A DNA stretch of 64,000 bases from Viola odorata (lineage: Eukaryota; Streptophyta; Magnoliopsida; Malpighiales; Violaceae): positions 33,872,836-33,936,835 of the forward strand of contig OY829538.1 in assembly GCA_963691705.1 (NCBI GenBank), in the 5' to 3' direction. Of this stretch, positions 293 through 53,312 are shown piece by piece. Both the position numbers and the translations under genes were made by a program. The notes beneath the pieces were generated by a model that did no database searches, was not told where the DNA came from, and saw nothing but the letters and a program-made list of their open reading frames with translations. How positions within the stretch are numbered: position 1 is the first letter of the stretch; the number at the start of each line of letters is the position of its first letter.

Positions 293-639
293 TGATAACA
301 ATCCACCTAACGACAAGGGTATTTCCATCTCTTATCCCGCATGGAAAGATCGGAACCACTGTTCCTACCTCTACGGTAGGATCGAGGCTGTCATCTCCCC
401 CGTTAAGAGGCTAACGCTAGGAGAGCTGACATCACGAGGGGGGTCCCCACATCCACCTTCTGGACAACCAGAGGTGCCATCCCACCCCAAGGGAAAAGCA
501 CCAACTGTTATCTCGCCTGGGTAACAACCATGTCTCCACGCACCGCCCTGACGGTATATCACAACATGGGCAAACCCCTGCCCCTGACGGGACCGGTTGC
601 TCCCTAGCAAACTTACTCGCGCGGAAACGCTTCTTTCAT

Positions 640-648
640 CTATAAATA
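640..648 (+). promoter_or_regulatory. TATA box of Tat-1 LTR promoter
   Basis: CTATAAATA sits in the LTR about 200 bp before its end, the expected place for the U3/R boundary. The identical motif is in the 3' LTR at 14505-14513 and in both Tat-2 LTRs. Confidence 0.75.
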
Positions 649-740
649 CCTCCCCCACAAAGGAGGAAGGTAAGCACGAATTACTGGCCCAAGCTCTGCC
701 AAATTCACTACACATACTGACTTAAGCATCGGAGTGTTTC

Positions 741-761
741 CGCCGGAGACCCCCTCCGGCG
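741..761 (+). other. Conserved LTR stem-loop CGCCGGAG/CTCCGGCG
   Basis: Perfect 8-bp stem CGCCGGAG/CTCCGGCG with a 5-nt C-rich loop, preceded by ACTGACTTAAGCATCGGAGT. The same leader and stem occur in the 3' LTR (14607-14627) and in the Tat-2 LTRs (21360-21380 and 44146-44167), although the rest of the LTRs has diverged strongly. It lies downstream of the TATA box, so it should be in the transcript (R/U5). A role in RNA folding, termination or packaging is inferred. Confidence 0.6.
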
Positions 762-852
762 TAATGCAGGTACTGCGGACCGCCGTGGGCACTAATCTGA
801 GAGGACCAATTTCTCCATATATCCTTCGGCAGAAGACAAATTCTTATCAAAT

Positions 853-3302: not shown

Positions 3303-4436
3303 CCGTTCCTCAATCGTTTCGGGGCAACGATATCCCAAAAACACATGCGGATGAAATACCCCTCGTGGAACGGCGTGGTCTCAATCAAAGGAGACCAGAA
3401 ACTGGCAGCTGAGTGTTATTCGCTTATGACTCAAAGGAGTTGTGACCGCTATGTTTGCGTGGCAGATGATCCCTTTGATGATAAAGACGAAAAGCGTACT
3501 CAACCGCTCGATCAAATGATGTCAATACCTGTCGGAGAGGACAGTGAAGCGAACCTCTTGATTAGCGAGAAACTAAGCCCCAAAGAGAAGGTGCAATTAG
3601 CTCGACTGTTAAGAAAATGTAAAGGGGAATTCGCGTGGAAACCGGCAGACATGCCAGGAATCTCGCGAGAGGTCGCAGAACACCGGTTAAACGTTAGCCT
3701 CGACGCTAAGCCCGTCCAATAAAAACGACGCGCCTTCTCACCAGAAAAGATAGCGGCCATCGAGAAAGAGCTACTAAAGCTCATAGATGCGGGCTTCATC
3801 CAAGAAGTCTAATACCCAACCTGGCTGGCTAACCCTGTGTTAGTCCCTAAGCCTAACGGCGGTTGACGCATGTGCATCGATTTCACTGACTTGAACAGCG
3901 CCTGCCCCAAAGATTGCTATCCCCTTCCCCGAATCGACCAGTTGGTCGACCAAACTGCTGGGTACGCCTACCTGAGCTCCTTAGATGCTAACTTCGGGTA
4001 TCACCAAATCCCTATGGCCATAGAAGACGAAGAAAAAACTGCCTTCATCACCCCTAGGGCTACATATTGCTACACCGCAATGCCGTTTGGGCTGAAGAAC
4101 GTCGGGGCAACATTCCAGCGCATGGCGAATAAGGTTTTTGAAAAGCAAATCGGGAAAAAAGTAGAGGCTTAAGTGGACGATATCCTGATTAAAAGTCAAA
4201 GCTTCAAAGACCACCTTGCTGATTTGGAAGAAGTTTTCAATGTGATGAAAAAGTACAAAATGAAACTGAATCCACGAAAGTGTATGTTCGCATTCCAAAC
4301 GGGTAAATTCTTGGGCTACGTGGTCAGCCGGAAGGGTATCCAACCCAACCCTTCAAAGATAAAGGCCATTCAAGACATGATATCCCCTTGGACCGTCAAA
4401 AACATACAGAAGCTCATCGCGGCATCATCGCGTTAG
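3303..4436 (+). pseudogene. pol: Tat-1 reverse transcriptase (broken)
   Basis: Continues the gag-protease frame. Recognisable RT blocks are RMCIDFTDLNSACPKDCYPLPRI, YLSSLDANFGYHQIPM, TAMPFGLKNVGATFQRM and VDDILIKS. In-frame stops, checked against Tat-2, are TAA near 3719 (CAA in Tat-2), TAA near 3811 (CAA), TGA near 3865 (TGG) and TAA at 4170-4172. The last replaces the Tyr of the catalytic YVDD motif, leaving only VDD, so this copy cannot make active RT. A frameshift near 4410-4425 leads into the RNase H frame. It would have copied the element RNA into cDNA in cytoplasmic particles. Confidence 0.85.
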
Positions 4437-5575
4437 GACGGTTCATATCTAAGCAAGGCGAGAGATGCCTGCCTTTTTTCAAGGTCATTCGAAACAAGGC
4501 CCCATTCGGGTGGACAGAGGAATGCGAAAATGCATTTGCAGGGCTGAAAGCTTACTTGTCATCCGATCTAGTGGTAACGAGGCCTGAGTCCGGCGATGAG
4601 CTATATCTATACTTGGGAATAGCCGACGAGGTAGTCAGCGCCGTCCTTGTGCGAAGCGAAGAGCATGTACACCGCCCTGTATTTTTTGTGAGTCACATAT
4701 TGAAAGATGCTGAGCTGCGATACGCTCGCATCGAGAAGATATCGCTTGCCCTAGTACAGGCAACGCGAAAGATGGACCGATACTTCCAAGCCCACCCTGT
4801 CACTGTGCTCACTGATCAGCCGCTGAGAAAAATCTTTAGAAAGCCTAAGTCTTCAGGGAGGATGTTGATTTGGGCAATCGAGCTTGAACAATATGGGCTG
4901 CAGTATAGAGCCAAACCGGTGATTAAAGCCCAAGCGTTAGCAGACTTCATAGCGGAATGCACATTCACCAAAGATGCGTCGGCAGACCCGTCAGAGGAAG
5001 AACCAGAAAATTCATGCCTACCGTACCCGGAAATGTTAGCGGACTCATGGGTTATTCATGTGGACGGAGCAAAAAATCAAGAGCTAGCAAGTGCAAGTAT
5101 TTTCCTGGTGGGACCAGACGGCATGGAATTGCGATACACCATCAGAATCCTGCAGCCGTTATCCAACAATGCCGCTGAATACGAAGCGCTGCTGGCAGGG
5201 CTCAGAATTGGAAACAGCTTCTCCGTCGAAGCCTCTACCATTGCGGAGGAGGAATGCGGCTTGCGCCTAAAAATAGGAGGAGACTCTAAATTGATAATGG
5301 ATCAAGTCCTAGAAAACTCCCAAGCCCGAGAACCCATCATGATTCAATACTTGGCCAAAGTAAAGCGTGAGCTGTCGGAGATGCAGAAAAAAGGCACTCG
5401 GGTCACCTTTGAACATATCCCTAGAGAAAACAATGAAGAGGCTGATAGCCTCGCCAAGATGGCAGCCAACGTGGAAGCCTTCATACCCAACGAAGTGCAC
5501 TACGGGGAGTTATCCATACCCTCTTTCATGGAAGAACAAGCATCGCTCTGTGTGGAAGAAATAGAAAGCGACTAG
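4423..5575 (+). CDS. pol: Tat-1 RNase H and second, archaeal-type RNase H
   Basis: One open frame with two RNase H domains in a row. The first, Ty3-type, has ALGRFISKQGERCLPFF, the shared DELYLYLGIADEVVSAVLV and PVTVLTDQPLRKIF. The second (about 5040-5480) has the four acidic blocks of an archaeal-like RNase H: VIHVDGAKNQ (Asp), AAEYEALLAGLRIG (Glu), IGGDSKLIMDQVL (Asp) and NNEEADSLAKMA (Asp). This extra domain is established for Tat-lineage plant elements. RNase H degrades the RNA strand during reverse transcription. The frame ends at TAG 5573-5575, where Tat-2 has TGG (Trp). Confidence 0.85.
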
Positions 5576-6807
5576 AGAACCCAGTGATAGAATATCTGAA
5601 ACATGACAAGCTGTTAGAGGAGAGCACGGAAAGGAGGAAAATCCTGAAACGAGCGGCGCGATGAACATATTACAACGGAGAGTTAGTACGGAGGTGTTTT
5701 TCCCATCCTGCCGCTAAGTGCATAACAGAGCAAGAAGGCTTGCATGTGCTATGAGAAATTCACGAAGGGATATGCGGCATGCACATCGCCAGCGATACAC
5801 TGGCAGCCCAAGTGTTTCGGTCGGGATTCTACTGGCCCACAATACGAGGAGATTGCCATAACTTCGTGAAAACCTGTCAGAAATGTCAGGAATATGCTAG
5901 GATTCCTCGAAAACCGGCCGCGCAAATTTCAGAAATAATCGCTCCATGCCCGTTTGCCAAATGGGGCATTGAAATTTTAGGCCCGTTTCCAAAGGCTAGA
6001 TCTCAGTTGAAATTCGTGATCGTGGCGGTAGACTACCTCACAAAATGGGCCGAAGCCGAAGCGTTAGCCACCATCACCACTGAAAAAATTTGGCATTTTT
6101 TCAAACACCAAGTCATTATGCGATTCGGGGTGCCGCGCATACTGATTAGCGACAATGGAACGCAGTTCACAAGCAAATTCTTCAGGGATCAGTGTGCGGA
6201 ATTTCAGATCGAACAAAGGTTCTCTTCCGTGGCGCACCCTCAAACCAATGGCCAAGCAGAAGTAACCAACCGCAACATCCTTAGTGGCATCAAAAGAAAC
6301 CTAGAAGGATCCAAAAAGAAATGGCCAGATGAACTGCCATACGTACTATAGGCCTATCGCATGACTGTCAAGGCCGGCACTGGAGAGACCCCGTTTGCGT
6401 TAACATTCGGAACTGAAGCTGTCACACCGGTTGAGATCGGAACGATGAGCCTTCGGGTGGCTCATTTCAAAGAAGAAAATAATGAGGAAAGGTTACGTGC
6501 TAACCTTGACGCCCTACCGGAAACACATGAGGAAACTCTCCTGAAAACTATGCACTACAAAAGAAAAATGGCACAATACCACAACCGGCAAGTGAGAGAG
6601 CGATTGCTCAAAGCTGGAGATTTAGTGCTCAAAGATAGACGAGCGGCAGGGCAACGTATGGGAAAACTCAGCCCAAACTGGGATGGACCGTATCGCGTCA
6701 CCCGTGTTGTGGGAAGAGGAGCTTACCACTTGGAAACGCTCGAGGGAATACCCCTGCAAAACTCTTGGAATATAGCTCGGCTGAAGCTATACCACGCCAG
6801 GAACTAG
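5576..6807 (+). pseudogene. pol: Tat-1 integrase (broken)
   Basis: Integrase would insert the cDNA into chromosomes. Visible are an HHCC zinc-binding region (HEGICGMH ... CQKCQEYA, 5760-5900) and a catalytic core ending ISDNGTQFTSKFF and PQTNGQAEVTNR, then a C-terminal region to TAG 6805-6807. The first catalytic Asp, in WGIDILGPF of Tat-2, is Glu here (GAA 5971-5973), which should inactivate it. Stops occur near 5662 and 5752 (TGA) and at 6349-6351 (TAG for TGG). The end matches Tat-2 (NSWNIARLKLYH). Confidence 0.85.
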
Positions 6808-6889: not shown

Positions 6890-7400
6890 AAGAATGCCAG
6901 GAGTGAAAATCCTATCCTTGTGATGGCTGGTCCAGATCAGACAGCTCACTAAGATGAGGCACGCCCTGGCATGGCTAAGCGTTGGGAGTGAAAATCCTAT
7001 CATTTTGGCAACCGTGCTCCCATAGATGGCCCATTAAGACGAGGCACGACCCCAAACGCTCCCGGGAGTGAAAATCCTATCCTTGTGGCAACAGTGCTCA
7101 CATAGACGGCCCACTAAGACGAGGCACGCCCCGGTATCGTTGGGAGTGAAAATCCTATCCTTGTGGCAATCGTGCTCCCATAGACGGCCCATTAAGGCGA
7201 GGCACGACCCCAAGGAGAGACCAACTCCATCCTGGACGTGAAAATCCTATCCTTGTGGTAACCGTGCTCACATAGACGGCCCATTAAGACGAGGCACGTT
7301 CCAGAGACGCGAGGTTTCAACGCTTGGGAGTGAAAATCCTATCCTTGTGATGACCGGTCTTGATCAGACAGCTCACTAAGACGAGGCACACCCCAAGCCG
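6890..7400 (+). repeat. Tandem repeat block between pol and antisense cassette (Tat-1)
   Basis: About six imperfect units of roughly 75-100 bp. Each has a GAGTGAAAATCCTATCCTTG box, then GACGGCCCATTAAGACGAGG and CACGCCCC. Copies start near 6900, 6987, 7064, 7141, 7237 and 7327. Tat-2 has a matching block of about five units at 34827-35280. Hypervariable tandem repeats at this position are known in Tat/Ogre elements. It lies where sense pol and antisense gene 1 transcripts would converge. Confidence 0.85.
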
Positions 7401-7753: not shown

Positions 7754-9695
7754 CTAAGGAGCAGGTGATGCACCGCCTCCTTCCTGCTGAGTAGATCTCC
7801 AGCGATGAAAGCCCTTATCAGTGACGGTGGCGATCCTCTCTTCAAAATACCGACCAAGAAAATCAGCGTCGAGGTTATCTATCCCGTGCTTAAGCATAAA
7901 ACCGTCAGACATGATGCCCCCGCCTTCTTTCAAATACCAACGGCTCTTCTCAGCAGAAAGAGCGAGATCGGCGGACAGCTCAGCGTTCCGCTGTCTCTCT
8001 TGACGAAGCTTATCCTCCAGCTCTTGCTTAGCAGTTGTTACCTCCTGAACAGCAACCGCGGCCTCCCGTTTGGCAGCCTCCATCTCTTGCTTAGCAGTTG
8101 TTGCCTCCTGAGCAGCAACTGCGGCCTCCTGTTTGGCAGCCTCCGACTCTTGTTTGGCAGCAGCAACGACATTCATGTAACCCTGACGCTCTGATAGTAG
8201 TCTGTTCAGCTCCCCCTGCCCGTTTGCCTCCACTTTAGCGTTTTCTTCATCCATATAATGGAGATGGCAGAGCGAGGAAAATAGCTGGGAGCGAAGAAAG
8301 TTTATACGCTCCTGCTGGCTCCTAGCCGCAAGGGCATCTCTCTCTCTTGGAATAGACATTATCTCAGCTGCCAATAAGGAGGTACATGAGAGGACATAGT
8401 CAGGAGGAGCATCCGCCGAAAACTGCAAGTAGTTATCTCGGAAGGAGCGCAGGCTGAACCTGTGAGTAGGCATCAGAGGAGGAGCATAAGTTGAGGCGTG
8501 AACCATCAAGCTGGGAGTAGGGCCACCTATCGCAGCAATCGGAGGAGACACTGGAACAAAAAGCAAGGTGGGAGGAGAAGAGGGTCGACTAATGGTACCG
8601 TCAGCGTTAGGGACAGAAAGCCCGTCACCCCCGAGCACTTCGCCATGATGAGCCATCAGATTGGAATAAATTGGAGAATCACTCAAAACCTGAGGACCAC
8701 CGCCAAAATTGGCACCCTGCGGCTGCTCAACTGGCACACCCCCAAGGACAGCCCCAGAAGGATTGGCAGCAGATGAAGTCGGGCTTTGTTGAAACTCATA
8801 ACGAGCCTTCTTTTGACGCTCTCGAAGGACGTCTGTCATAGACATGTCGTCTTGAGAGGAAGAATGAGCGGAAACAGTGGCGGTTTCCTGGATAGCACAA
8901 AGTATAATGAGAAAGTGGCACGAAGAGAAAAGGAAACCATAAGAAGAGACAAATACGTACTTAAGCACCTGAAGGAGCTAGAGGAATCCCAGAGAGAATC
9001 GGGCTAGCAGTTGCCTCTGAAGAGGCGACAGTATGAGAGGAAACGGAAGGCGTAGTACGTGTCTGCCTAGCCCTTTTCTTCCTTACGGCGCGAGTACGAA
9101 GAGGCAGTTGGGCAACGTCTGGAGCGGTAGCAGTAATTTCCCCTTCAGCAGTGGTAGCAGTAGACTCGATGGTAATTTCCCCTTCAGCAGACTCGATGCC
9201 CATGAGTTTCCAGGTGAAGGGCTTTAAGGAGTCATCTTCATAACGAGGGGATATCGATATAACCCCCTTGCGGGAATATAACTGGAAGATATCGCGAAGC
9301 AATACCAAGGTGGGAGAAGCAATCCCTTTAAAACGACACAAAGCGACAAATGCACTAACAACGCAAATCGCGTTGGGGCTCAACTAAGCCGGAGCCAGAT
9401 CAGAATCGGCCAACAACAATTTCACAAGCGGGTCAAGGGGAAGACAAAACCCATGGTCAAACAACTTGGCATACAACATTCTACTATTAGCGGGTAAAAC
9501 GCTGTTCAGGCGAAGAGATTCAGAGGCAGCACAAACGGGATAATCTCGGGGAAATCGACCCTTAGACCCGGCAAGCTTGCGATTAATCAAGGCTAGCGTG
9601 TAAAGGGAGGTGGGTGTATTATCAATCTTTTCTTCCCCGGCAGACCTCAGAGGATCCCCTTCCTCGGAAGATTTTTTAGCACGGGTCTTAGCCAT
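7754..9695 (-). pseudogene. Tat-1 antisense gene 1: Transpos_gypsy-like domain + coiled coil, intron-bearing
   Basis: ATG at 9695 (MAKTRAKKS), matching the Tat-2 homologue (MAKTRRPES). The N-terminal part (KLFDHGFCLPLDPLVKLLL, FVALCRFKGIASPTLVLLRD, ISPRYEDDSLKPFTWKL) fits the plant 'putative gypsy-type transposon' domain. TAG at 9384-9386 replaces a Gln codon. About 80 residues after GIESA, plus the first intron, are missing relative to Tat-2. A GT-AG intron at 8888-8960 (GTACGT...CCAG, phase 0) matches intron B of Tat-2; TAA at 8961-8963 is the codon just before its donor. The last exon (378 codons, open) encodes a Ser/Pro/Gly-rich linker and a long Ala/Glu/Lys coiled coil with repeats such as AAKQEAAVAAQEATTAKQE. 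Function unknown; the domain name does not establish transposase activity. Confidence 0.7.
9126..9200. repeat. Short tandem duplication inside antisense gene 1
   Basis: GGTAATTTCCCCTTCAGCAG and neighbouring bases occur twice about 40 bp apart, encoding a repeated EGEIT...TAE motif. It lies at the junction where about 80 residues present in Tat-2 are missing. Confidence 0.6.
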
Positions 9696-9835: not shown

Positions 9836-9846
9836 ATTATATATAA
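9836..9846 (-). promoter_or_regulatory. TATA box of Tat-1 antisense gene 1
   Basis: Minus strand reads GGTTATATATAATG about 145 bp before the ATG at 9695. Tat-2 has GGTTATAAAACC about 160 bp before its gene 1 ATG. Confidence 0.65.
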
Positions 9847-10363: not shown

Positions 10364-12151
10364 TCAGCCCCTCTCCCCATCCGGAGTGGAAGAATCGTTC
10401 CCACCTTTGCCAACCTCATCCATTACAATAGAAACGTAATCAGCAATCTGGGCCGGATCAGAAGGATTACCTTTGAAACGGGCTGCAAATCCAGAAACAA
10501 AGGCCTCCAAAACCTTCTTCTTTCGCAGCTCTTCCCTTAATGGTGCTCTGGCAGACTCTTCATCTTGGGCCAGCATCTCCTCGCGAAGAAGAAGATTCTT
10601 TTTTCTCTCTAACGATAACTCGGCCTCCAGAACCTCCATTCTCGCTCTCTCGGCAGACTTCTCTCTGCTCAGCTCCTTTTGAGACTCGTCATAAAGACGC
10701 GTTAGCAGTCTCGCATGGTCCGCCGACTTATCAAGTTGCACCTTTTGAACGCGCATTGCGTTAGAGAAATTTCATGACTCGCGATCGTGAATCTCGAACA
10801 GATAGTTCAGATAGCGGAAGTTATCCAAGGAATCATTCACAACATGTCGAAGACGGGCCGCTGGAGGAAGCTGAAGGAATTTCTCTTTCTCTGACCGAGA
10901 GCTCATCATTTCCCCTATCAGGGGCGTGGTAAACTCATCTCTAGAAAAGGGTTGAGGAACCCCGACAGCACGAAGACCGTCAAAACAGAACCCTGCCAAG
11001 TTCATGTGATAGGCTGGGGCATCGTTAGGACCACCATAGGAAAGATTGATTGGCAGAACTGAACCCTCAGTAAGCACATTCGTGATAGGAGTAAAGAATA
11101 GCTTGGGAAGGGCTCTAGGCGACGGCCCAGCCACTGAGTCCACAGCAGAAGATGTGGTCGTCACGTCGAGAATGCAATGAGAAATCGGGGAATCAGGAAC
11201 GGCAGCTGTAGGAGGAGGACATGCTGTCGGAGGAATCTCCGCCTCGGTAAAACAAGTGGCAGCTGACACCCCAATAATTTTCTCTGGCTGGGAAGTCCTT
11301 CCCCTAGGAGAAGCGACAGGTGTAGAACCAGTTGTCGCGTCAGCAGAAGACGTCCCGATAGCCTGTTCGCTCGCATCCACTCGGAGCCTTTTCCGACGTA
11401 GGGAAGAAGTAATGGAAGAGGCATGACAAAGGTCAGGCTTAGCATCTGTATCCTCGTCGTCACTATCGACCAACCTTGTCGCAGTTTGGCTAGATTCCGC
11501 CCCCTTGCGACGATCCGGTAGCCAATTCTCCACGAAGAGAGAAGCTCGAGCGGAACCGCCGAACCTTCGCCCTCCTTGGGCAACCGTTTTGGTTCTCCTC
11601 CTGGGAGGCTGAGCGTGTCCCTGATTGGACCCCCCAGTAGGAGGGGAAGCTGGTAAAGTTTGGAGCGGTACAACATTCAAAGGAACGCCGGTATCACCTG
11701 GGAACCGAGCGTTAGCATAAAAAAAATATATTATGAAAAGAGGCAGACTCACCCATAATGCACTCCTCCAGAGGCTTGAATAAAGCGAAGTCACGGATGC
11801 GATAACAGGTGTCCTCGTCTAACAAAGCGTTAGCCTGCTCTGGCTCAGCTCTGGTTAATATCGCGGGATTCTTCCAAATGGGGCCTATGAGCTCCTGATT
11901 GAAATTAATACGCCACAAACGACACCGTGTTTCTCCATCTTAAAATAAAGTAGCCTAAAAGAACCCCATGCCGGATTATAAAGCCGCATGTAGCTTTCAG
12001 GAGCAGAGGGTTCGTGCCCAGGAGGAAAGGTGATACCGTGTTCCTCCAGCTCGGCCTTCAGAACCACATCGCAGGTAAAAACACTGGGCGATTGAGCGAC
12101 CTCTGGATCCATGGGTTTCCAGAGGACCTGGCGAGGCCTATTTCTAACCAT
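10364..12151 (-). pseudogene. Tat-1 antisense gene 2: Transpos_gypsy-like domain + coiled coil, intron-bearing
   Basis: Exon 1 starts at ATG 12151 (MVRNRPRQV) with VVLKAELEEHGITFPPG and WGSFRLLYFKM. It then loses about 110 residues present in Tat-2, with a frame change, and resumes at WRINFNQELIG ... FKPLEECIMG. The intron at 11698-11752 has donor GTGAGT and acceptor TTCCCAG, phase 1, exactly where Tat-2 has its intron. Exon 2 (10364-11697) is open except for one TGA at 10772-10774. It encodes a Pro/Ser-rich linker (PLNVVPLQTLPASPP, RRRTKTVA, WLPDRR), a region ending LDNFRYLNYLFEIHDRES, and a coiled coil (KSAERARMEVLEAELSLERK). It is a paralogue of gene 1 in domain order. Function unknown. 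Confidence 0.7.
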
Positions 12152-12332: not shown

Positions 12333-12342
12333 CTTTTTAAAG
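12333..12342 (-). promoter_or_regulatory. TATA-like box of Tat-1 antisense gene 2
   Basis: Minus strand CTTTAAAAAG, about 182 bp before the ATG at 12151. Tat-2 has CCTTTATAAGGG about 190 bp before its ATG. A G-box/ACGCGT pair lies further upstream in both. Confidence 0.55.
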
Positions 12343-12633: not shown

Positions 12634-13086
12634 TTAATCCTCATCAGCCCAGTCCGCGTCATAGCAGTAATCATAGTCCTCTAGGGACGATGGTAATCCA
12701 CTGTTGTAGGAAAGGGAATATTCGGCAGGTTTAGGCACAAGCTTTGTCGCGTGGGCTACCATCTTGTCATAACAGGCACGAGAACTCTCCCCAATAGTAG
12801 AAGTTGCCGGCCTCGAGTCAGTGCCATGAGTAAGGGCCTCTTTCTCGGAAGGAGGAGGAGGGGCAGACGATGACGTTTCAACACCTTTCGATAGCATCAG
12901 GTAGTGGGGCACAAAGCCTGCAAAGAAGGACTCAAAGGTCTGCTTCTTCGCTTTCACTGGCTTCTTGCGACCCTGACGTCTGGCGAGGTATTTGGTAGGT
13001 CTCCACGGTGGTGTCAGAAGGGGATCATCCGAATCTGGCGAAGTCGGAGGAATTGGCAAGGAATCGCGCTCATAAAAATTTGTCAT
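12634..13086 (-). CDS. Tat-1 antisense gene 3: small Pro-rich/basic protein (150 aa)
   Basis: I do not recognise this family. It is open from ATG 13086 (MTNFYERDSLPIPPTSPDSDD), a start chosen because the Tat-2 homologue (41375-41797) begins at the same place. Three parts are shared: an N-terminal RDSLP-PPTSPDSD ... PPWRP motif; a basic cluster RRQGRKKPVKAKKQTFESFF that could be a nuclear localisation signal (inference); and an acidic, aromatic C-terminus YCYDADWADED. The middle is Ser/Pro-rich and diverged. No stop or frameshift is present, unlike gag-pol of the same element. A TATA box lies 68 bp upstream. An upstream in-frame Met at 13203 exists but is not conserved. Confidence 0.65.
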   Translation of the reverse strand: MTNFYERDSLPIPPTSPDSDDPLLTPPWRPTKYLARRQGRKKPVKAKKQTFESFFAGFVPHYLMLSKGVETSSSAPPPPSEKEALTHGTDSRPATSTIGESSRACYDKMVAHATKLVPKPAEYSLSYNSGLPSSLEDYDYCYDADWADED

Positions 13087-13153: not shown

Positions 13154-13162
13154 TTAAATAGC
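13154..13162 (-). promoter_or_regulatory. TATA box of Tat-1 antisense gene 3
   Basis: Minus strand GGCTATTTAAGG, 68 bp before the ATG at 13086. Tat-2 has GGCTATTTAATGG 70 bp before its ATG. Confidence 0.6.
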
Positions 13163-13574: not shown

Positions 13575-13958
13575 TCAAGCATTAGATCCGGCGTCATCTT
13601 CCCCGGGCACAACAGGAACCTCCCTCAAAGCATCAGCAACGGAGGTCAACTCAGCCGAACAGGCCCTCATGCCTTTCAAGCGGCAGGCCAATAGGTCCTT
13701 CCTCTGCTGCAGCATCGAAACTACCACATCGAGATGAGCAGTAGTGATGGCCAGCTTCGCCAAGCTCTCCAGAGGGCTAAAGTCCTCCAAAGATATCCCT
13801 AGCTGCTTAGACAAAACAGGAGTCAGAATTCCCTGCAATTCTAGAATGTCCTCGGAGGTCTTAAGGATCATCCTCTCCAGGAAACCGATATCGCCCTCAG
13901 TAAGCTTCTTCAGGGTCAAAGTCTTAGAGATCAGGAAATTTCTAGTTAGCTCATCCAT
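13575..13958 (-). CDS. Tat-1 antisense gene 4: small helical protein (127 aa)
   Basis: I do not recognise the family. It is intact from ATG 13958 (MDELTRNFLISKTLTLKKL) to a stop at 13575. The start is supported by the Tat-2 homologue (MDHLTKQFLLSKGHTLKNL). Blocks shared with Tat-2 are GDIGFLE, LKTSEDILELQG-LTP, SLEDFSPLE, MLQQRKD and LKGMR, with a C-terminus ending DAGS. The composition suggests a mostly helical protein. It has no Cys/His zinc pattern, signal peptide or membrane segment. It is the gene nearest the 3' LTR and has a TATA box 61 bp upstream. More than half the residues match Tat-2 by eye, which suggests it was under selection as a protein. Confidence 0.65.
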   Translation of the reverse strand: MDELTRNFLISKTLTLKKLTEGDIGFLERMILKTSEDILELQGILTPVLSKQLGISLEDFSPLESLAKLAITTAHLDVVVSMLQQRKDLLACRLKGMRACSAELTSVADALREVPVVPGEDDAGSNA

Positions 13959-14018: not shown

Positions 14019-14027
14019 AATTTATAG
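14019..14027 (-). promoter_or_regulatory. TATA box of Tat-1 antisense gene 4
   Basis: Minus strand GCTATAAATT, 61 bp before the ATG at 13958. Tat-2 has CCTATAAATC 55 bp before its ATG. Confidence 0.7.
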
Positions 14028-20868: not shown

Positions 20869-21466
20869 TGATAACAATTAAGACAATCCTAAGGGCATTG
20901 CTGTAATTATGACCCCTGAGGAGAACAAAATCCTATAGCCCTATCGAACATCTAAGCTATCGCCGCTAGACTATGAGGTGTTTTTTGGGATGGTCGATAT
21001 CAGCAGGGGGGAGGTCTCACGTGTCTCTGCACGCACGACATCATCCCATCCCAGGGCAGCCACGACACCACCCACGGAGTTATCGCCCCCGGCATCACCA
21101 TGGGTATCGCCCTCGGCACCCTCCTCGGAGGTATCGCTCGTGACGTCAGATCCAGGTATCGCCCGTGATGTCAGATCCAGGTATCGCCCGTGACATCAGC
21201 TAGAGCGTTATCTTTCCGTGATATCGCCCTTTTGCCCAGATATCGCCCCAACGGCCTATAAATACCCCCTCATTTTTATAACATCGTGTAAGCCTAAGAT
21301 TGCCCTCTAGAACCTCTGCTATTTTGAACCCCTTACTGACTTAAGCATCGGAGTGTCTACGCCGGAGCCCCCCTCCGGCGCTTTGCAAGTGTGTCCGACA
21401 TCAGCTACAACAACTCTGACCAACAGTAGCCATCATCCCGATCGTCTCAAAGATAGAATCTTATCA
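20869..21466 (+). repeat. 5' LTR of Tat-2
   Basis: Direct repeat of 43670-44253. It has a short array of GTATCGCCCGTGACGTCAG units (about 21132-21200), a TATA box (CTATAAATAC, 21256-21265) and the conserved stem-loop (21360-21380). It carries six Gs where the 3' LTR has about twenty. Confidence 0.95.
21132..21200 (+). promoter_or_regulatory. TGACGTCA-type repeat array upstream of the Tat-2 TATA box
   Basis: Units of about 24 bp, GTATCGCCCGTGACGTCAG plus ATCCAG. The first keeps a perfect TGACGTCA palindrome; later ones read TGATGTCA and TGACATCA. TGACG motifs are bound by plant TGA-type bZIP factors. The array ends about 55 bp before the TATA box, so it is a likely U3 enhancer (inference). 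Confidence 0.55.
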
Positions 21467-28686: not shown

Positions 28687-28688
28687 AC

Positions 28689-34716: not shown

Positions 34717-34826
34717 ATTTTATCTGCACCTTTGACTGATGCCAACCCTAACCTTAGCTAACGCTCAGTGAGAGAGCTTTCTTAGGTGTTTGTGGTTGCT
34801 TTTGTGCAGATAAAGAAGGGGGATCC

Positions 34827-35280
34827 TGGGAGTGAAAAGTCTTATCCTTATGACGGCCGGTCCTGATTAGACGACTCGCTAAGTGAGGGCACGACCCAGC
34901 ATGCCTTGAACTAGCGTCGGGATTGAAAGGTCCCTGACGCCCCCAGGAGTGAAAAGTCCTATCCTTGTGATGACCGATCTTGATCAGATGGCTCACTAAG
35001 TGAGGGCACTTCTCGGTATCCTTGGGAGTGAAAAGCCCTTTTCTTGTACTGACCGTTCTCATGGAGACGGCCCATCAAGACAAGGCACGCCCCAGGGAAA
35101 TAGTAACTTTATTCTAGAAATGAAAAGTCCTATCTTAGTGACCGGGCTAATATAGACGGCTCATTAAGTGAGGGCACGATTCTAGACGTGAGGACAACGC
35201 CTGAAAGTGAAAAACCCTAGCCTTGTGACGGCCTGTCCTGATCCGACGGCTCACTAAGATGAGGCACTTTCCAGGCCGAC
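34827..35280 (+). repeat. Tandem repeat block between pol and antisense cassette (Tat-2)
   Basis: About five imperfect units with GGGAGTGAAAAGTCTTATCC, GACGGCTCACTAAG and GAGGCAC boxes, starting near 34830, 34946, 35026, 35115 and 35210. The boxes match the Tat-1 block, so the repeat family predates the split of the two elements. The spacer 35281-35845 shows no gene. Confidence 0.8.
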
Positions 35281-35845: not shown

Positions 35846-38028
35846 GTCAGCCCTTGGGGTTCCTCCGTTTCCAGCCCTCTGCCTTAGCTTGGCGAAAACC
35901 CGCAACATTGAGGTCGGCAGACTTCTATTTGAAAGCCCTCGTGACCTCCTCACCTTTATACGCCTCTACCCCATGGACCTCCTCGAAGCAATCCACCAAA
36001 ATAATGGCAGTCCGCTCGACATGCCATAGACACTTATCGGCTGACTCCTCCTCTAGAGCGGCCTTCCCTTCCTCCAGGGCAACTTTCTCCCTTGCCAAAG
36101 ATGACTTCTCTTCTTCCAGGGTGACATTCTTGGCTTTTTCCGCTGTCAAGGCAGCATCAAGGGTGGATTCGTCTTGTCATCGTCAATCTTAGAGAGGAAA
36201 GCCTCCCGTTCGGCAGCGGACGATAATATCTGGGCAGCCAATAAAGCGAAAACCTCATCCGAGCCATCACCCCCGATAGCCGCCAAGCCTGTGTTGCGAA
36301 AATCATATAAGCCAACTTGATGAGTCACAGTACCGGACTCACTCACCGAACTTAGATCAGCAGCAAAATTAAAGGTGGTGGCCTCTTCGCCGGAACGTTG
36401 CGACAATGGAACGCTCGAAGGGACGAACACCAGGGAAACAGGAGGGTGAACCTGTGTAAAAGTACCCCCTTGGATGATGTAGGAACCATGGGAATGGTAG
36501 CCCGAAAAGTCCTGCAAACCCTCTTGGTAGTCCAGGTTAGGAGGATATGAGTGAACAAGCCCGCCGAAAGAATTGGGCGAAGCCCCGAAAGACTAAGTTG
36601 TACCCATGTTTACGAGAAACTCAGAGGGGTGATTCTGGGGAACAGCCGTGGAAACGAAGGTGCTGGCAGGTCTGACTTCCGTCACAGCGACAGTAGAGGA
36701 TAAGCTACCGCCCTCACCCTCCGAACGAGGTCTCTTCTTGGAACCACCCAACACATAACCCATCTCCATATCGCCTATGGGAGATGCGGAAGTAGGAGCA
36801 ACAACAGTATCCTACAAAGAACACAGTATAAAATGCAGATAAGAGAAATAGATGAAATAATGACAGACATCAATGTACAGCATATCGCGGCCAAAAAGCA
36901 CACTCACAACAGCAGTGTCAAGAGGAGGCGCCTCTGAAGAAGCTGCCGCGTCCGGAGAGGGAGTGAGAGCGGCAACGCTTCTTGTTCTCTTCTTCTTTAG
37001 GGACTTTAGAAGAAGATGACTGAGTAGGATGAGCAGCGACGGTCACGATGGGGATACCCGAAGGAATGTCGGTATTTCCCTCACCAGCCGAGGAAGAGGA
37101 TACTTGAGCGAGGCTCGCGGAAGCAGCGGTTGATACAATTGGGTTATCAGTAGCTTCCGTGGAGACAACCCTCTCATTTTCTTCTCTTTCCCGAGCCCTT
37201 TTTAGTCATCTCCTAACGCTCTCAGGCGTGTAATTGGGATCCGTCGCTTCATGATCGCAAAATAACGTTAGCGTTAGTATCAGCAGTAATAAGGAAGGAA
37301 GCAACACGACACTCACGTCTAACACAGGATTGAATGTCCGCCCCGCATGCCAGATAATGGGTGTGAACGCTGATTTCCAGTTGAAGCAATTTATCTAACC
37401 AGCCTTGTTCAAGCTGAGGAAGGCTCTCTGGCCGACCCCAGGCACTATCCTTGACGTCTTGGTTAAACCCAGATCGCCACCAGGAATCAGGAACTTCAGG
37501 AAGATCTACCACAAAGAACTCCTTTTTCCAAGCCTCGACGGAAGACTCAATGTGGAGGAGTTTCCAAGTAAAGGACTTGAGTGAGTCATCATCATAACGG
37601 GGCGATATCGTTATCACACCTCGACACTTCATCAACTTAAAAACTGACTTAAGCAACAAAAGGGTAGGGGAAGTGATCCCCTTATATTTACAAAGTTCCA
37701 GAAAGGCATAAACACAGCAATATGCATTTGGGGCTAATTGGACGGGATTCAAATCACAAGCAATAAGCAATTGTTTTATGAAAGGGTCGACGGGAAGCCC
37801 GAAACCATAACAGAACATTTGTGCGTACAGAACCCTACGTTTGCCCGTCAAAATGTTGTTCAAGCATATCGACTCAGGGGCAATGGAGGCCTTATAACCG
37901 ACAGGGATAACAGCATTATGTGCAGCTAAATGCTCATTAAGAGCGGCTTCAGAGGTGATACTGCTAATCATAATATCCATCGTTTTCTCATCGGTAGACT
38001 TCGACTCAGGGCGGCGAGTCTTAGCCAT
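35846..38028 (-). pseudogene. Tat-2 antisense gene 1: Transpos_gypsy-like domain + coiled coil, two introns
   Basis: Exon 1 (37317-38028, open, 237 codons) starts MAKTRRPESKS and holds the full domain: AQMFCYGFGLPVDPFIKQLL, CCVYAFLELCKYKGITSPTL, ISPRYDDDSLKSFTWKL, VEAWKKEFFVVDLP and WWRSGFN. Intron A (37247-37316, phase 1) has donor GTGAGT and a consensus branch site TACTAAC. Exon 2 (36908-37246) has one TGA and a one-base frameshift. Intron B (36812-36907, phase 0) runs GTGAGT to TTTGTAG. Exon 3 encodes a Ser/Pro-rich linker (SKKRPRSEGEGG), then after a TAG and a frameshift near 36150 a coiled coil (EEEKSSLAREKVALEEGKAAL). The end is uncertain (about 35846-35925). Biochemical function unknown. 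Confidence 0.72.
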
Positions 38029-38188
38029 GAAAGAAATAAGAAATTAAAGAAGAAGAAGACGATGGAAGAAAATAGGAAATACCTTTAGAGTCTTCGAGAA
38101 CCCTGAACGGAGGAGAGAAAACAAGACAGCTAGAGAGAATATGAAGAAAGTAGAATGACAAAAGTAAGAAAAAGAAATAAGTGTTGGG

Positions 38189-38198
38189 TTTTATAACC
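38189..38198 (-). promoter_or_regulatory. TATA box of Tat-2 antisense gene 1
   Basis: Minus strand GGTTATAAAACC, about 160 bp before the ATG at 38028. GGACACGTGTG (G-box, 38354-38364) lies about 155 bp further upstream. The same pair occurs in Tat-1. No gene is seen in 38365-38690. Confidence 0.65.
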
Positions 38199-38690
38199 CT
38201 AGTCGCCAAAAGAAACGATGGACGCTGTAGTCGTTGCGTGAGGAGCGTCACAAGGAACAGACTCAAGCAATGAGTACAATTCTAGAGAAGCGCGGCAACG
38301 CTTCAATTTTACTAAAATTCTAGAGCACGCTAGCCCTCGGTGCCCTAAAGAACGGACACGTGTGTCTGTGCCATCACGACTTTTCTCTCGCATTAATGAG
38401 AGGATCATGAGCATTAAATGCTCTGAAAAGCAGAAATGATTTATGGAATAAGACAAGAGCGATATTGCAATAATGGAGATAACGCAGGATGGCGTTAGCC
38501 AAGCCGGCAGCTTTCGAGATAACGCGGGAAAGCAAAACAAAGATCAGTTATTATCTAAGAATGAAGTACAGATATTGTTGCGCGATAAGGCGTTATTACA
38601 AAACAAAGGAAGCAAATAAAGAGGAAAATCCTCCAAAGGGTCAACCTTGACTAATCATGGTCCAGCACGGATATCGCAGCTGCCATTCCC

Positions 38691-40903
38691 CTACTCCTCC
38701 CCGAAAGAAAGAAAATCTCCCTCGCTTTGGCCTAAATCCTTTATTTTCTTGGAGGCGTAATCAGCCAACTTAGATGAATCAACAGTCCCTTGGCGATAGA
38801 GATCTGTAAATCCGGCGATACAGACCTCCATGGTCTTGTTTTTCCACCAAGCTATCTTCGAAGGTACTTTGGCCAGATCCGCGTCGTGGGACGATATCTC
38901 TTCATGAAGGAGAGAGTTTCTTTTATCGGCCGTCACCAATTCCGCCTCCAGCAGCTCTACCTTAGCCTTCCCCTTTGATTTTTCTCGCGCAAGCTCGGCG
39001 CGACAGTCGTTCAACTCTGCCTGGGTTCGACCTTGAAGTTCGACAGCTCTGTTACCTCCACCAAAGCGGCGTCTAGTTGTTCCTTTGAACCGGGAGAATG
39101 CCGAACCTTATCGCTCTGATCCTCGAGAAAATAATGTAGCTCGCGGAAGCTGGCCAGCATGTCGTTCAGAAGGAGTGTATGCTGAATTTCAGGGGGATGC
39201 CGCAGGAACTCTTCCTTGTCCTTCGAAGAACTGAACATTTGGCCCACTATAGAGCCTACCGGCTCATCTCACAATAACAGATCCGATATCCCTAAAGCGC
39301 GAAGCCCGTTAGTACCAAAAGATGACAGATCCAGCTGGTATGCGACATTTCCTTAAGGACTTTGAGGGGAAAGATTGGCGACATAGGGAGGAGAGCAACT
39401 TTTTGCGGAACTACCAATGCCCGAGATCGAAGAAAGGAATAAGGGTTGAGGCTTCCTCGGGAGAGGATTAAGAGGAACAGTTGGGTTCGAAACCGGCATG
39501 GTCACATCCGGAATACAGGAAGAGATCGGAGAATCAGGGCCACCAGACGGCAAGGGTGAGTCCACCACCGCCGAAACCTCATTAGCTTTGGAAGGAACGG
39601 AAGAAGGCACCTTGAAAACCTCCGCCACCTACGAGGTACTCGCGACATGAGAAGTGTCAACCCCCGCGGTAGGAACTGCGTTAACTTCCCTCAAGGGAGG
39701 AACCGGTGGGCTAGTTTTCTCTTTTCGGGTTTTCTTTCGGAGACGCTCTATCTCGGCAGCCATCTCTTCGCTATCGTCCTCGGTTGACTCCGCCGCGGGA
39801 TCATTTTTTCTCGCCCTAAGCTTTATTCATTGGGCAAGGGTGGCGTGACATAGCTCAGAACCGACATCCATGCTCTCGCTATCGCTGTCAACTATTCCAG
39901 TCGCAGGACCACTCGGAGTCACTCCCCTGCCCCGAGGCGGCAACCAATTCTCAAGAAAATAAGAAGGTTGAGCGGAAGCACTGCGTGTTGCGACGGTCTT
40001 AATTCTCCTTCTCCTCGGCGGGATAGTCGGATGGTTGGAGTTTTCAGGTGGTGGAGAAGGGGGTAATGTCTAAAGCGGCACCACGTTCAGAGGAGTGTTA
40101 TTTCCCCCGAAGGAATGACCCTCAGCGCTACCTGCCAGCAAAACATATTAACATAGCAAGTAAATCGAAGCGATAATGTGGCAAAAGAAAAACTCACCAA
40201 CGACACACTCTTTCAAGGGTCTGAAATGAGCAAATTCCAGAATGCGGAAAGGCCCTTCTATTTCTAACAGGGCGGTAACATGGGACACATCAGTACCAGA
40301 CAGCACTTCTGGTTTTCTTCAAGCGGCGCTGGTAATCTCTCGGTTAAAACCCCCGCGCCACAAGTGGGACGGCAGGCGAAGGGTGAAGAAGCCATTTTTC
40401 CAGTTGTCCACGCTCTCCTCAAAACCTTGAAAGTTCTGCCAGAAAAATTGCACGATGGCGTCATTCCATCTTGGGGTGATATCCACCAAGCAGTCGTGAC
40501 AGCTCAAGTTGAAAAATGTGCGGAATAGATCGAGGGATGGAGTGAAAATACGTTTCATCTCGCATGCCCGAAGGAAGGCATAAATCCCACACCAGGAAGG
40601 CGGAGTTATTTGAACGGGATTAAGATCATAATGATTTAGCAGCTTCATCAGAGAAGTATGGATCGGGAGATGAAACCTGTAGAGGAACATCTTGAAATAA
40701 ACCAACCGGAACGTTCCCCACATGGCATCATGAAGCCAAATATCCATCGTAGGGATATAAGGGCGGCAACCCAAGGGGAAGGTGATACCGTTCTCCTCTA
40801 ACTCTGCCCTCAAAACTTCATTACAATAAAAAATACTACGAGCTCTCCTAGCCTCGAGATCTATGGGATTTTCGACACCGGCAATGGCTCTAGCACGAGA
40901 CAT
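38691..40903 (-). pseudogene. Tat-2 antisense gene 2: Transpos_gypsy-like domain + coiled coil, intron-bearing
   Basis: Exon 1 (40198-40903) starts MSRARAIAGVENP and contains EVLRAELEENGITFPLG, WGTFRLVYFKMFLYRFHLPIH, PPSWCGIYAFLRACEMKRI, ITPRWNDAIVQFFWQNF and LPSHLWRGGFN. TGA at 40319-40321 is its only stop. It ends FRPLKECVVG at a phase-1 intron (40132-40197, GTGAGT to TGGCAG), the same place as in Tat-1. Exon 2 begins with PLNVVPL, then a TAG where Tat-1 has CAG. A Pro-rich linker, IERLRKKTRKEK, DSPISSCIPDVT, FRELHYFLEDQ and a coiled coil (KVELLEAELVTADKRN) follow, with several further stops and a frameshift near 39011. Confidence 0.7.
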
Positions 40904-41090
40904 AGGGGACTGGAAAAATAAAGCTACGACGAGGGAGGAACAAAATACCTGGAGCAAGAAGCCAGTAAACTGGCCATCGGCGCGGGCGAGCAGTTGTAGA
41001 AACTCCTCTTGAGCAGGAAGAAGCACAGGAGAAAGAGAAAGTGTGAAAATTTCAAAGTATTGGCAAAAGTAATGAAAGAGAATAGCGGTT

Positions 41091-41166
41091 CCCTTATAAA
41101 GGTCGAACTTGAAGAAGAGACAGCCTGTAAAAGTGAGACACGTGCGGAATAGAAAGCGACGCGTGG
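41091..41166 (-). promoter_or_regulatory. Promoter of Tat-2 antisense gene 2
   Basis: TATA box (minus strand CCTTTATAAGGG, 41091-41102), about 190 bp before the ATG at 40903, with GACACGTGCGG (41137-41147) and GACGCGTGG (41156-41166) upstream. Tat-1 has the same motif set. The rest of 40904-41374 shows no gene. Confidence 0.6.
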
Positions 41167-41374
41167 ACAGACATTTATGTCTTTGGGAGAAGACAGTTAC
41201 CGACTAAAAACCGAAAGACGGTTGCACCCAGCAACAGGTATCCCTCCGCGACAACCCTTGACGCTTGAAAAAATGGCGCGAGAAGGCGATAGGAGAACAA
41301 AGGGAAAATGAAGTGTTATCTTATTCATTTTTAAAAAGCCATACGGCATCTACAAAGAGGCAAGACACGCTAAA

Positions 41375-41797
41375 CTAATCGCCATCAGACCAAGAGATAT
41401 CATAACAATAAACTACATCATCATCTGAGAACGTTAGCTCCCTACTGACGGGAGGGAAACGCTCATCAACCCTTTTTCTTATGTGTATCATTGATCGGCC
41501 TGACTCCTCCTCAGCGGCTGGCGTCACCGTTTCAACGCCCGCGTAGGTAGGGAGAGCTATTTTTGGCGAATCACGAGGAAGAAGAGATGGTTCATCCCCC
41601 TTTTGAACAGAAGAGGCGGGAGAATTAAAAAGCAGTTCAAACACCTTTAAGGCCTTTTTCCTCAGCCTCTTGCGACCCCGTCGGTGGGCGAACGGCCTCC
41701 ACGGAGGTGACGGAGGAGGATTGTCTGAATCTGGCGAAGTCGGAGGAGTTGGTAGAGAATCCCGCGCAGCAGTATCCAAAAAATAAGAATCAGCCAT
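41375..41797 (-). CDS. Tat-2 antisense gene 3: small Pro-rich/basic protein (140 aa)
   Basis: Open from ATG 41797 (MADSYFLDTAARDSLPTPP). Same plan as the Tat-1 copy: RDSLPTPPTSPDSD ... PPWRP, a basic cluster HRRGRKRLRKKALKVFELLF, a diverged middle and an acidic, aromatic C-terminus YCYDISWSDGD. No stop or frameshift, although pol of the same element is broken. A nuclear role is suggested only by the basic cluster. No known family recognised. Confidence 0.65.
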   Translation of the reverse strand: MADSYFLDTAARDSLPTPPTSPDSDNPPPSPPWRPFAHRRGRKRLRKKALKVFELLFNSPASSVQKGDEPSLLPRDSPKIALPTYAGVETVTPAAEEESGRSMIHIRKRVDERFPPVSRELTFSDDDVVYCYDISWSDGD

Positions 41798-41866
41798 GAG
41801 ATCACAGGCAAGCTGCCGAGAGGAAAAATAAACAAGAAGATGAACGGAAATAGGGGAAAGGATCCC

Positions 41867-41876
41867 ATTAAATAGC
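41867..41876 (-). promoter_or_regulatory. TATA box of Tat-2 antisense gene 3
   Basis: Minus strand GGCTATTTAATGG, 70 bp before the ATG at 41797 (68 bp in Tat-1). Confidence 0.6.
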
Positions 41877-42100
41877 CAAAAAAGGGGGAAAAGCTTTTCG
41901 ATCATCCGACACGACTCTTGAGAACTGACACGCGTACAACCTAGAGTACAAATCTAGATTTGCAGTCACGCCTGTTGGAATCTCCCACAGATCGAGGAAA
42001 ACCGAACATTAGCCCAATCAGTTGACAATGAAGCGGTGGCGCAGAATTAATGCAGAACAGTTAGCGAGGAAACCGTCGTGAAAAAACCGTCCAATGACCG

Positions 42101-42119
42101 ACTCGTTTTCAGTTGGGCT
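42101..42119. promoter_or_regulatory. Conserved TTTTCAGTTGGGCT motif upstream of antisense gene 3
   Basis: Second internal copy of the pre-3'-LTR motif, about 225 bp upstream of the gene 3 TATA box, as in Tat-1 (about 230 bp). Confidence 0.55.
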
Positions 42120-42278
42120 GAGGAGGCCTCCAATAAAAAAAAGACAAATGGCGCATTGAAGAAGAAGAATAGTGGAAAGTGGCATAATAAAAACAGTTTA
42201 TTTATTATGGCCTAACGGCCGAGAGGTACAGCAGCGTAAAAAGAAAAAAGAAAAAAGGCTCAAAGGGAGCCACCGCCG

Positions 42279-42656
42279 TCAGGCGTCGGAACCAGCATCC
42301 TCGGGTATAATGGGAATATCTCTCAGGGAGTCCATGACCAGAGTAAGGTCAGTAGAGGTGACCCTCATCCCCTTCAGGCAGTACCCCAGCATGTCCTTGC
42401 GCTGCTGCAGCATGGCGATCACCACTTAAATCCGAGCGATGGAGGTGGCCAACTTCGACACGTTCTCTAAAGGACTGAAATCCTCCAGAGATGTAGCTCC
42501 CAGCCTGGAATGGAGTGGGGTCAGCATCCCTTGCAACTCCAAGATGTCCTCGGAGGTCTTGATCAGCATGTTCTCTAGGAACCCGATGTCACCATCATTG
42601 AGGTTCTTGAGAGTATGGCCCTTGGAAAGGAGGAATTGTTTGGTCAAATGATCCAT
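42279..42656 (-). pseudogene. Tat-2 antisense gene 4: small helical protein, one stop
   Basis: ATG at 42656 (MDHLTKQFLLSKGHTLKNL). Aligns end to end with the 127-aa Tat-1 protein: GDIGFLENMLIKTSEDILELQG, SLEDFSPLENVSKLA, then TAA at 42426-42428 where Tat-1 has Asp, continuing VVIAMLQQRKDMLG, CLKGMRVTS and SLREIPIIPEDAGSDA to TGA 42279-42281. The alignment past the stop shows a recent single lesion in a once-functional gene. TATA box (CCTATAAATC, 42711-42720) 55 bp upstream. Confidence 0.65.
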
Positions 42657-42710
42657 GATGCAGATTATGAAAGAAAAAGATGAGATGAACTTGAGTGGAG
42701 AAAGCTCTCA

Positions 42711-42720
42711 GATTTATAGG
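42711..42720 (-). promoter_or_regulatory. TATA box of Tat-2 antisense gene 4
   Basis: Minus strand CCTATAAATC, 55 bp before the ATG at 42656; Tat-1 has GCTATAAATT at 61 bp. Confidence 0.7.
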
Positions 42721-46878: not shown

Positions 46879-47444
46879 TGATGCGATCTGAGTTCTCTTT
46901 CGAAGAATTGGATGCAATTGTGCTTTACAGCTAAGGATCTAGCTCGAGTTATCAACTAAACTAGTGGTGGTTTATGAACAAATTGGATAAATGATGCGGA
47001 AATGAAATGATGAAGAACGCAGCGGAAATAATAAGAATATGATTAACAAGGAGGCAGATCAATATTGATGGAAAATTTGCTATTGGATAATTAATTAAAA
47101 AAATGATTGATTAACAATAAACAACAAATCACACTCACCAATAAACAACCAAACACAAAAATCCAAGATATTGATTGATTACAAATATCTTAAAAATTGT
47201 ATAAGGATTAAACACACAAACAGTAAATTAAAGGTTGAAAACTATGGATCTTTTACTTGCAATATATCAAGTCGTCTTCTAGACTTGACTCTCACAAGGT
47301 GAGTTTCTGTTGTTTAGAGGGCAGAGTATTCTTTAACGCAAGCAATAAAAACTTTACACAAAAACTGCCTAAAATGAGAAAAGGAGTTCGCTATTTACTG
47401 AAAAGTATGAAGCAGTTCCGTTAGACAGCTGGACGGGTCAACCC
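46879..47444 (-). repeat. CRM-G 3' LTR (truncated)
   Basis: Matches 53313-53845 closely, up to CAACCCACTAGAG. The remaining part of the LTR and the last part of integrase are deleted at about 47445. Confidence 0.85.
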
Positions 47445-53310: not shown

Positions 53311-53312
53311 CT

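Follow-up and report, generated by a model that had tools for sequence, protein, structure and literature searches.

A putative accessory-gene module of four antisense genes in Retand-type retrotransposons of Viola odorata

Background

Antisense open reading frames (ORFs) with the TRP28 domain were already known as typical of Retand elements (PMC11963269). In the survey of Vicient 2025, antisense coding regions were present in all Retand clusters studied; at a limit of 600 bp, 104 antisense ORFs were found in 63 clusters, with TRP28 in 97% (PMC11963269). The span from pol to the 3' long terminal repeat (LTR) of these clusters is 2.9–6.6 kb, and TRP28 is predicted to bind DNA (PMC11963269). In Grande, gene23 is driven by a promoter of its own and its product is nuclear (PMC7264820). 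According to the accessible sections of the respective papers, Grande gene23, RIRE2, the Silene Retand ORFs and PvRetro13 ORF2 represent one antisense gene each (PMC7264820, PMC11728184, PMC4093653), the exception to this pattern being ORF3/4 of Retand-2, named in PMC11728184. Here we analyse a window of 64,000 nucleotides (nt) from Viola odorata (assembly GCA_963691705.1, contig OY829538.1, positions 33,872,836 to 33,936,835 of the forward strand), in which two elements, Tat-1 and Tat-2, each carry four genes between pol and the 3' LTR on the strand opposite to gag-pol. With a probability of roughly 0.6, we take these genes to be the accessory-gene module of a four-gene Retand (Tat) subgroup, whose products would be nuclear regulators of the element.

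The elements share with the Retand clusters of Vicient their position within Ty3/gypsy Tat, the antisense TRP28 ORFs between pol and the 3' LTR and tandem arrays in that region (PMC11963269). They differ in having two paralogous TRP28 genes together with two small genes, own TATA-like boxes and introns, and in the distance from pol to the 3' LTR, which amounts to about 7.35 kb for Tat-1 and 9 kb for Tat-2 (where later insertions may contribute) versus the 2.9–6.6 kb given above. The small genes 3 and 4, of about 375–460 bp, fall below the 600-bp ORF limit of that survey, in which ORFs <600 bp without TRP28 are not displayed and whose accessible text holds no word starting with "intron" (PMC11963269). 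An earlier interpretation of the window from its letters, here called the sequence-only reading, had considered such a four-gene region as not well described. This stands for the four-gene set, of which we found no description, but not for its antisense TRP28 ORFs. Judged by titles and the openings of abstracts, with few subscription papers covered, the literature contained no four-gene set, no introns in such genes and no array structure.

Results

Gene order and occurrence in the genome

Read on the minus strand from the 3' LTR towards pol, both elements carry gene 4, gene 3, gene 2 and gene 1, with the following features:

Tat-1, 7754..9695, minus strand: gene 1; TRP28 exon with one stop and a deletion, then a Ser/Pro-rich, coiled-coil-like part
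Tat-1, 8014-8160, minus strand: 63-nt (21-residue) repeat in the later part of gene 1
Tat-1, 10364..12151, minus strand: gene 2; N-terminal part and later exons, TRP28 core deleted, intron 11698-11752
Tat-1, 12634..13086, minus strand: gene 3; 150 residues, open; Pro-rich N-terminus, basic stretch, acidic C-terminus
Tat-1, 13575..13958, minus strand: gene 4; 127 residues, open; predicted two-helix hairpin
Tat-2, 35850..38028, minus strand: gene 1; TRP28 exon 37317-38028, intron 37247-37316, later exons interrupted; low end approximate
Tat-2, 38691..40903, minus strand: gene 2; TRP28 exon, intron 40132-40197, coiled-coil-like 3' part; frame interrupted
Tat-2, 41375..41797, minus strand: gene 3; 140 residues, open
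Tat-2, 42279..42656, minus strand: gene 4; one in-frame stop

The claim of the sequence-only reading that four antisense genes stand in the same order in both elements is thus borne out. A blastp comparison of the minus-strand frames matched genes 4, 2 and 1 in this order, with identities of 63% and 58% for gene 4, 34–49% over pieces for gene 2, and 64%, 37% and 29% for gene 1. Plus-strand frames yield mirror matches too, their best E value being 3e-22 versus 4e-30 on the minus strand. Gene 3 is, by sequence, the weakest of the four matches: it gave no minus-strand blastp match at E 0.01, and the two copies are linked by a 75-nt DNA match of 80%, by global alignment (42%), by tblastn (32%) and by the genome search.

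The genome searched comprises 699 Mb in 26 contigs of this one plant. First-look candidates, not all of them verified, numbered 11,413 for PF04195 (TRP28), 6,894 for gene 4, 5,147 for gene 3, 6,043 for the last exon of gene 2 and 12,670 for gene 1, and the best 150 of each list were scored. When four lists (best 150 each) were joined by position, the 260 same-strand pairs found within 12 kb all stood in the order 4-3-2-1, several pairs possibly coming from one element, so that they are not independent. Only 3 opposite-strand pairs occurred within 12 kb, and the chance expectation for gene 4–gene 3 pairs is 0.9. The order is kept in the other Tat copies compared as well.

For a closer view, 20 loci were taken at roughly even steps from the best 150 scored TRP28 rows, a non-random sample, as 10-kb stretches in which elements may be cut. 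All four genes are present in 12 of them (11 by tblastn, and L022 once a gene 3 profile was used). Three are partial: L010 holds genes 3-2, L026 genes 2-1 and L015 a duplicated 4-3-2 fragment; in L015:3583-8006, parts of genes 4, 3 and 2 are present twice in direct order. The other five (L009, L011, L014, L018 and L025) have a single TRP28 gene, and a profile search of these five for genes 3 and 4 found neither (best E 0.58 and none). L009, L011, L018 and L025 form what we call the single-TRP28 set; L014 is less clear. The integrases of L009, L011 and L018 are 65–69% identical to those of Tat-1, Tat-2 and L010.

Selection on the proteins

Judged by their substitutions, all four genes are under protein-level purifying selection. 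The median ratio of non-synonymous to synonymous substitutions per site (dN/dS) was 0.10 for gene 4, 0.35 for gene 3, 0.20 for exon 1 of gene 2 and 0.24 for exon 1 of gene 1. It was below 1 in every pair used, i.e. 77/77 for gene 4 (of 91 possible pairs), 69/69 for gene 3 (of 105), 92/92 for gene 2 (of 120) and 70/70 for gene 1 (of 105). These are pairs among the loci with dS of 0.05–1.0, after dropping rows whose length was not divisible by three, rows of <=250 nt, rows of genes 1 and 2 at <=45% identity, and pairs of <60 codons. The per-gene check proposed in the sequence-only reading thus gave values below 1 throughout. Between Tat-1 and Tat-2 themselves synonymous sites are near saturation; in the minus frames an excess of third-position changes is visible by eye in 12 of 13 rows, exceptions being slight. 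It had also been pointed out that genes 3 and 4 are intact in Tat-1 beside a broken pol. Both are indeed open, but as evidence this is weak, and we rejected it as an argument for selection: the chance for 277 codons to stay open is 0.49 at an assumed five pol stops, becoming lower with more stops.

Promoter-like boxes and introns

Upstream of the genes the following boxes were located:

Tat-1 14021..14026 and Tat-2 42713-42718, minus strand: TATA box of gene 4
Tat-1 13154..13160 and Tat-2 41868-41874, minus strand: TATTTAA box of gene 3
Tat-1 12335..12341 (TTTAAAA) and Tat-2 41093-41098 (TATAAG), minus strand: TATA-like box of gene 2
Tat-1 12409-12414 and Tat-2 41139-41144 (by eye), minus strand: CACGTG of gene 2
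Tat-1 9838..9845 and Tat-2 38190-38195, minus strand: TATA box of gene 1
Tat-1 10036-10041 and Tat-2 38357-38362, minus strand: CACGTG of gene 1

Such boxes are conserved among the copies. For gene 4, CTATAAAT is found at -56 to -68 from the start in 15/15 rows, and for gene 3, GGCTATTTAA or AGCTATTTAA at -73 to -79 in all 12 rows examined, a count made without L012, L015 and Tat-1 (45% identity filter; the Tat-1 box was seen separately). At steady distances, CCTTTATAAGG or a close form precedes gene 2 in 16/17 rows (none in L019), and AGGGTTATAAAA or a close form precedes gene 1 in 13/15 (none in L021 and L023). CACGTG occurs within 500 nt upstream of gene 2 in 16/17 rows (1.0 expected) and of gene 1 in 13/15 (0.9 expected); the counts are 6/15 for gene 3 (1.2 expected) and 1/15 for gene 4 (1.4 expected). 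AATAAA follows the gene 4 stop after 72–79 nt in 13/15 rows, compared to 6/15 on the other strand.

The gene 1 intron lies after the TRP28 exon, with the donor GTGAGT in 13/14 rows, an AG acceptor in 14/14 (by eye) and a TACTAAY-like branch site. For gene 2, donor and acceptor were recognized by pattern in 13 of 20 rows, which include flanking and broken copies, and in Tat-1 by string. In the single-TRP28 type, the four rows displayed have similar intron-like sites at the corresponding position. Since alike sites occur in three TRP28 classes, the intron seems older than their split. Introns that are conserved on the antisense strand are a good indication of genuine mRNA.

Four separate TATA-like boxes, together with introns in genes 1 and 2, lead us to regard the cassette, as far as it can be read from the sequence, as four transcription units. 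The sequence-only reading had spoken of an operon-like region with its own promoters. The promoters are supported by one conserved TATA-like box for each gene, but the operon, understood as one polycistronic unit under a single promoter, was rejected in view of the four boxes and the AATAAA after gene 4.

The TRP28 proteins and the small proteins

Genes 1 and 2 are, by sequence comparison, old TRP28 (PF04195) paralogues. In Tat-2 they share 32% identity over 203 residues (E about 1e-32), and in a TRP28 tree gene 1, gene 2 and the single type form one clade each (unrooted, with a long-branch warning from the tree tool). The suggested Transpos_gypsy-like domain is confirmed for Tat-2, where both genes exceed the PF04195 cut-off (E 4e-7 for gene 1, 2e-10 for gene 2), but not for Tat-1, where gene 1, interrupted by an in-frame stop, stays under the cut-off and gene 2 lost the domain core through a deletion. 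The frame of Tat-2 gene 2 closes ahead of its intron. The later exons of both genes are Ser/Pro-rich with a coiled-coil-like end. None of 288 protein database candidates for the Tat-2 gene 2 exon reached E<=0.001, scans of viral and prokaryote contigs yielded no relatives, and a PDB sequence search had no match. In NCBIfam, six of seven proteins had no match, and the later exon of Tat-1 gene 1 had only coiled-coil-like ones below cut-off (TIGR04211, E 2e-4).

Gene 3 had been called Pro-rich and basic. Its rows do have a common Pro-rich start of the RDSPPTPPTSPDSDNPPPSPPWRP kind, but the protein is not basic overall (18–20 K+R versus 21–22 D+E in Tat-1 and Tat-2); it rather combines a basic stretch with an acidic end. 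By eye, a 14-residue stretch with at least eight K/R is present in 14/16 rows, an arginine-rich example being RRRCRKRRRKDAAK; at the C-terminus YCYGISWSDGE is exact in 6/16 rows and YCY...W is kept in 14/16. Of the 13 loci with gene 4, 11 keep its frame uninterrupted between the ATG and the usual stop. The description of gene 4 as a helical protein of about 125 residues agrees with the 127 residues in Tat-1 and with models that predict a hairpin of two long helices, the best pLDDT (predicted local distance difference test) being 81 (three rows).

A hairpin-like tandem array between pol and gene 1

Tat-1, 6893..7400, plus strand: array of six hairpin-like units of about 78 nt
Tat-2, 34822..35278, plus strand: array of five hairpin-like units

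The units of about 78 nt have constant core strands and end arms that vary by unit but mostly stay complementary. A structure-free alignment showed changes on both sides at six pairs. A model built from 11 units listed four of the six units of Tat-1 (each of the other two shares three bases with a listed neighbour) and four of the five of Tat-2. In total it found 91 units in 20 of 41 sources, namely the window, L010 and 18 of 20 stretches retrieved to cover the array (none in L036 and L048). No units were found in the five single-TRP28 loci, of which the L009, L011 and L018 stretches reach related pol; most sampled four-gene loci end short of the array position. L009, L011 and L025 have other tandem arrays, of 105–116-nt units, between the TRP28 gene and pol, which look hairpin-rich by eye.

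Pairing in the end stem holds for 95.7% of cells versus 33.0–47.5% for slid versions, and 173 cells are changed on both sides versus 55 in shuffles, in an alignment that was fitted to the model and whose related units are not independent. Two of the five measures did not stand out clearly from shuffles: pairs with a both-sided change (9 versus 6.9 in shuffles, 42 of 500 shuffles reaching 9) and further pair types (24 versus 24.7). Folded singly, three of nine units had z <= -2.6 and the other six -1.56 to -0.11, some departing from the consensus fold. G-U versus A-C counts, used as a strand test, were 87 versus 40, one column pair supplying 44 of the 87. RNAalifold on the 91 units kept the outer stem and altered the inner helices; therefore only the outer stem is firm. 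Rfam had no match over the gathering score (best snoZ103, 20.2 bits versus 44), and a second search found none. We regard the array as a structured candidate cis target of the cassette products.

The two insertions and their lineage

Tat-1, 293-14715, plus strand: LTR insertion, both LTRs present
Tat-1, 293..849, plus strand: 5' LTR; 3' LTR 14158-14715; TG...CA ends
Tat-1, 936..6807, plus strand: gag-pol with stops and frame changes; RVT_3 between RNase H and integrase
Tat-2, 20869-44253, plus strand: LTR insertion, both LTRs present
Tat-2, 20869..21466, plus strand: 5' LTR; 3' LTR 43670-44253
Tat-1 13393-13419 and Tat-2 about 42101-42120 (by eye): extra copies of the LTR-border motif, the other copy being at the 3' LTR border

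Tat-1 and Tat-2 are real LTR insertions. The LTR pair of Tat-1 is 97.5% identical over 562 columns, with flanks AAATT/GAATT; that of Tat-2 is 93.1% identical (578 columns without gaps; 88.7% in the gapped blastn row), with the 5-bp target duplication GGTTA on both sides. In Tat-1 the Pfam order is RT_RNaseH, RVT_3 (a second RNase H) and then, in the next frame, integrase. An additional RNase H in this place is a criterion common to Ogre and Retand (PMC6317226) and thus points to one of these two, and the antisense TRP28 to Retand rather than Ogre; Tat-2 genes 1 and 2 are such antisense PF04195 ORFs between pol and the 3' LTR. By these domains both are Retand-type Ty3/gypsy elements.

Within the cassette of both elements, an extra copy of a motif of the LTR border (AGCCCAACTGAAAA-like) lies between genes 4 and 3. 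An LTR retrotransposon (22234-29519; LTRs 98.4% identical, ORFs on the minus strand) is nested in the 5' part of Tat-2, and the window contains two more LTR elements at 46879-53848 and 54026-62372.

Discussion

Four protein genes that serve the element best account for the constraint on codons, the unvarying order, the promoter-like box of each gene and the introns. RNA polymerase II would transcribe each gene separately; G-boxes (CACGTG) would control genes 1 and 2, whose transcripts would be spliced. Since the genomic RNA represents the other strand, the antisense introns would survive retrotransposition. The TRP28 proteins might bind element DNA or chromatin as coiled-coil dimers and control its expression or silencing; the products of genes 3 and 4 might be their partners. 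Nuclear regulation is our preferred role in view of the nuclear location reported for the Grande product and of the DNA binding predicted for TRP28 (PMC7264820, PMC11963269).

One could object that the antisense RNA itself is the product, pairing with genomic RNA and feeding small-RNA control, the ORFs being incidental. Antisense RNA regulation has been discussed for such elements (PMC7264820); against it stand the third-position excess, dN/dS medians of 0.10–0.35 with every pair <1, and the conserved starts, stops and introns, which make this account very improbable, although antisense RNA may act in addition to the proteins. Even less credible to us is that the genes are of no use to the element, being either remnants in decay or genes captured from the host. 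The Tat-1 and Tat-2 copies are both partly broken, as such a view would predict, but it is already contradicted by dN/dS, and the fixed order, purifying selection and thousands of first-look candidates (6,894 for gene 4 and 5,147 for gene 3, best 150 of each scored) do not agree with it.

More weight is due to the idea that the proteins serve the life cycle directly, in nuclear entry of the pre-integration complex, in assembly or in RNA packaging. The nuclear Grande product and the accessory-factor roles discussed for it (PMC7264820) fit here, as do the basic stretch of gene 3 as a possible nuclear signal and the likeness of the gene 4 models to a helical adaptor. Own antisense boxes and G-boxes would, however, permit expression without genomic RNA, which would be odd for a structural protein, so that we consider this role possible but unlikely. 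It also seems rather improbable that the TRP28 proteins are anti-silencing factors similar to VANC, binding the tandem array and lifting methylation. VANC targets often are tandem repeats that vary between related elements (PMC5735166), and four-gene copies have a conserved array where the single-TRP28 loci L009, L011 and L025 have others. Yet the arms of the units vary while their pairing is kept, which argues for structure more than for a fixed DNA site.

Several observations weigh against the reading of the cassette as four genes for nuclear regulators. Transcription, splicing and function are deduced from sequence, and order, boxes and introns come from a single plant genome, in which related copies share boxes and introns by descent. 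The dN/dS values average over ancestral active copies and say nothing of whether the Tat-1 and Tat-2 copies work. The TRP28 structure model is of low confidence (pLDDT 54) and too weak for use, so that DNA binding depends on the prediction reported in PMC11963269, and the other four gene 4 models have a mean pLDDT of 60–67. After gene 3, AATAAA is found in 10/15 rows but nearly as often on the other strand (9/15). Terminators as the force behind the antisense orientation had to be dismissed, AATAAA being not depleted on the gag-pol strand (89 versus 38).

Some plant genomes are rich in Retand elements, and why these retain antisense genes is a question that the literature raises. With the module proposed here, the "antisense ORF" would give way to a well-delimited set: a TRP28 pair, two small proteins and a structured array. 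Its promoter-like boxes and introns can be checked in ordinary RNA data.

Within the same genome, the single-TRP28 elements resemble the four-gene elements in the TRP28 exon and intron-like sites; they differ in that neither gene 3 nor gene 4 nor the hairpin units were found, and the stretches covered contain only one TRP28 gene. Among other elements, VANDAL is a DNA transposon. Its VANC is similar, by description, in that accessory proteins encoded by the element act on tandem-repeat targets (PMC5735166). The antisense HBZ gene of human T-cell leukaemia virus (HTLV; named in PMC11963269) is likewise an antisense regulator, a resemblance only.

More speculatively still than the VANC-like role, the gene 3 protein and the co-varying array might form a switch similar to Rev and its response element (Rev/RRE) or to Tat/TAR, with the TRP28 pair and gene 4 completing a virus-like kit. 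If true, this would be an RNA-protein switch in a plant retrotransposon, its regulator encoded antisense under an own promoter. Rev/RRE is a retroviral accessory system in which a small basic regulator binds a structured RNA near the 3' end and moves or activates it. The cassette and its array resemble it in two sequence features, the basic stretch of gene 3 and the co-varying stems of the array, again a resemblance only.

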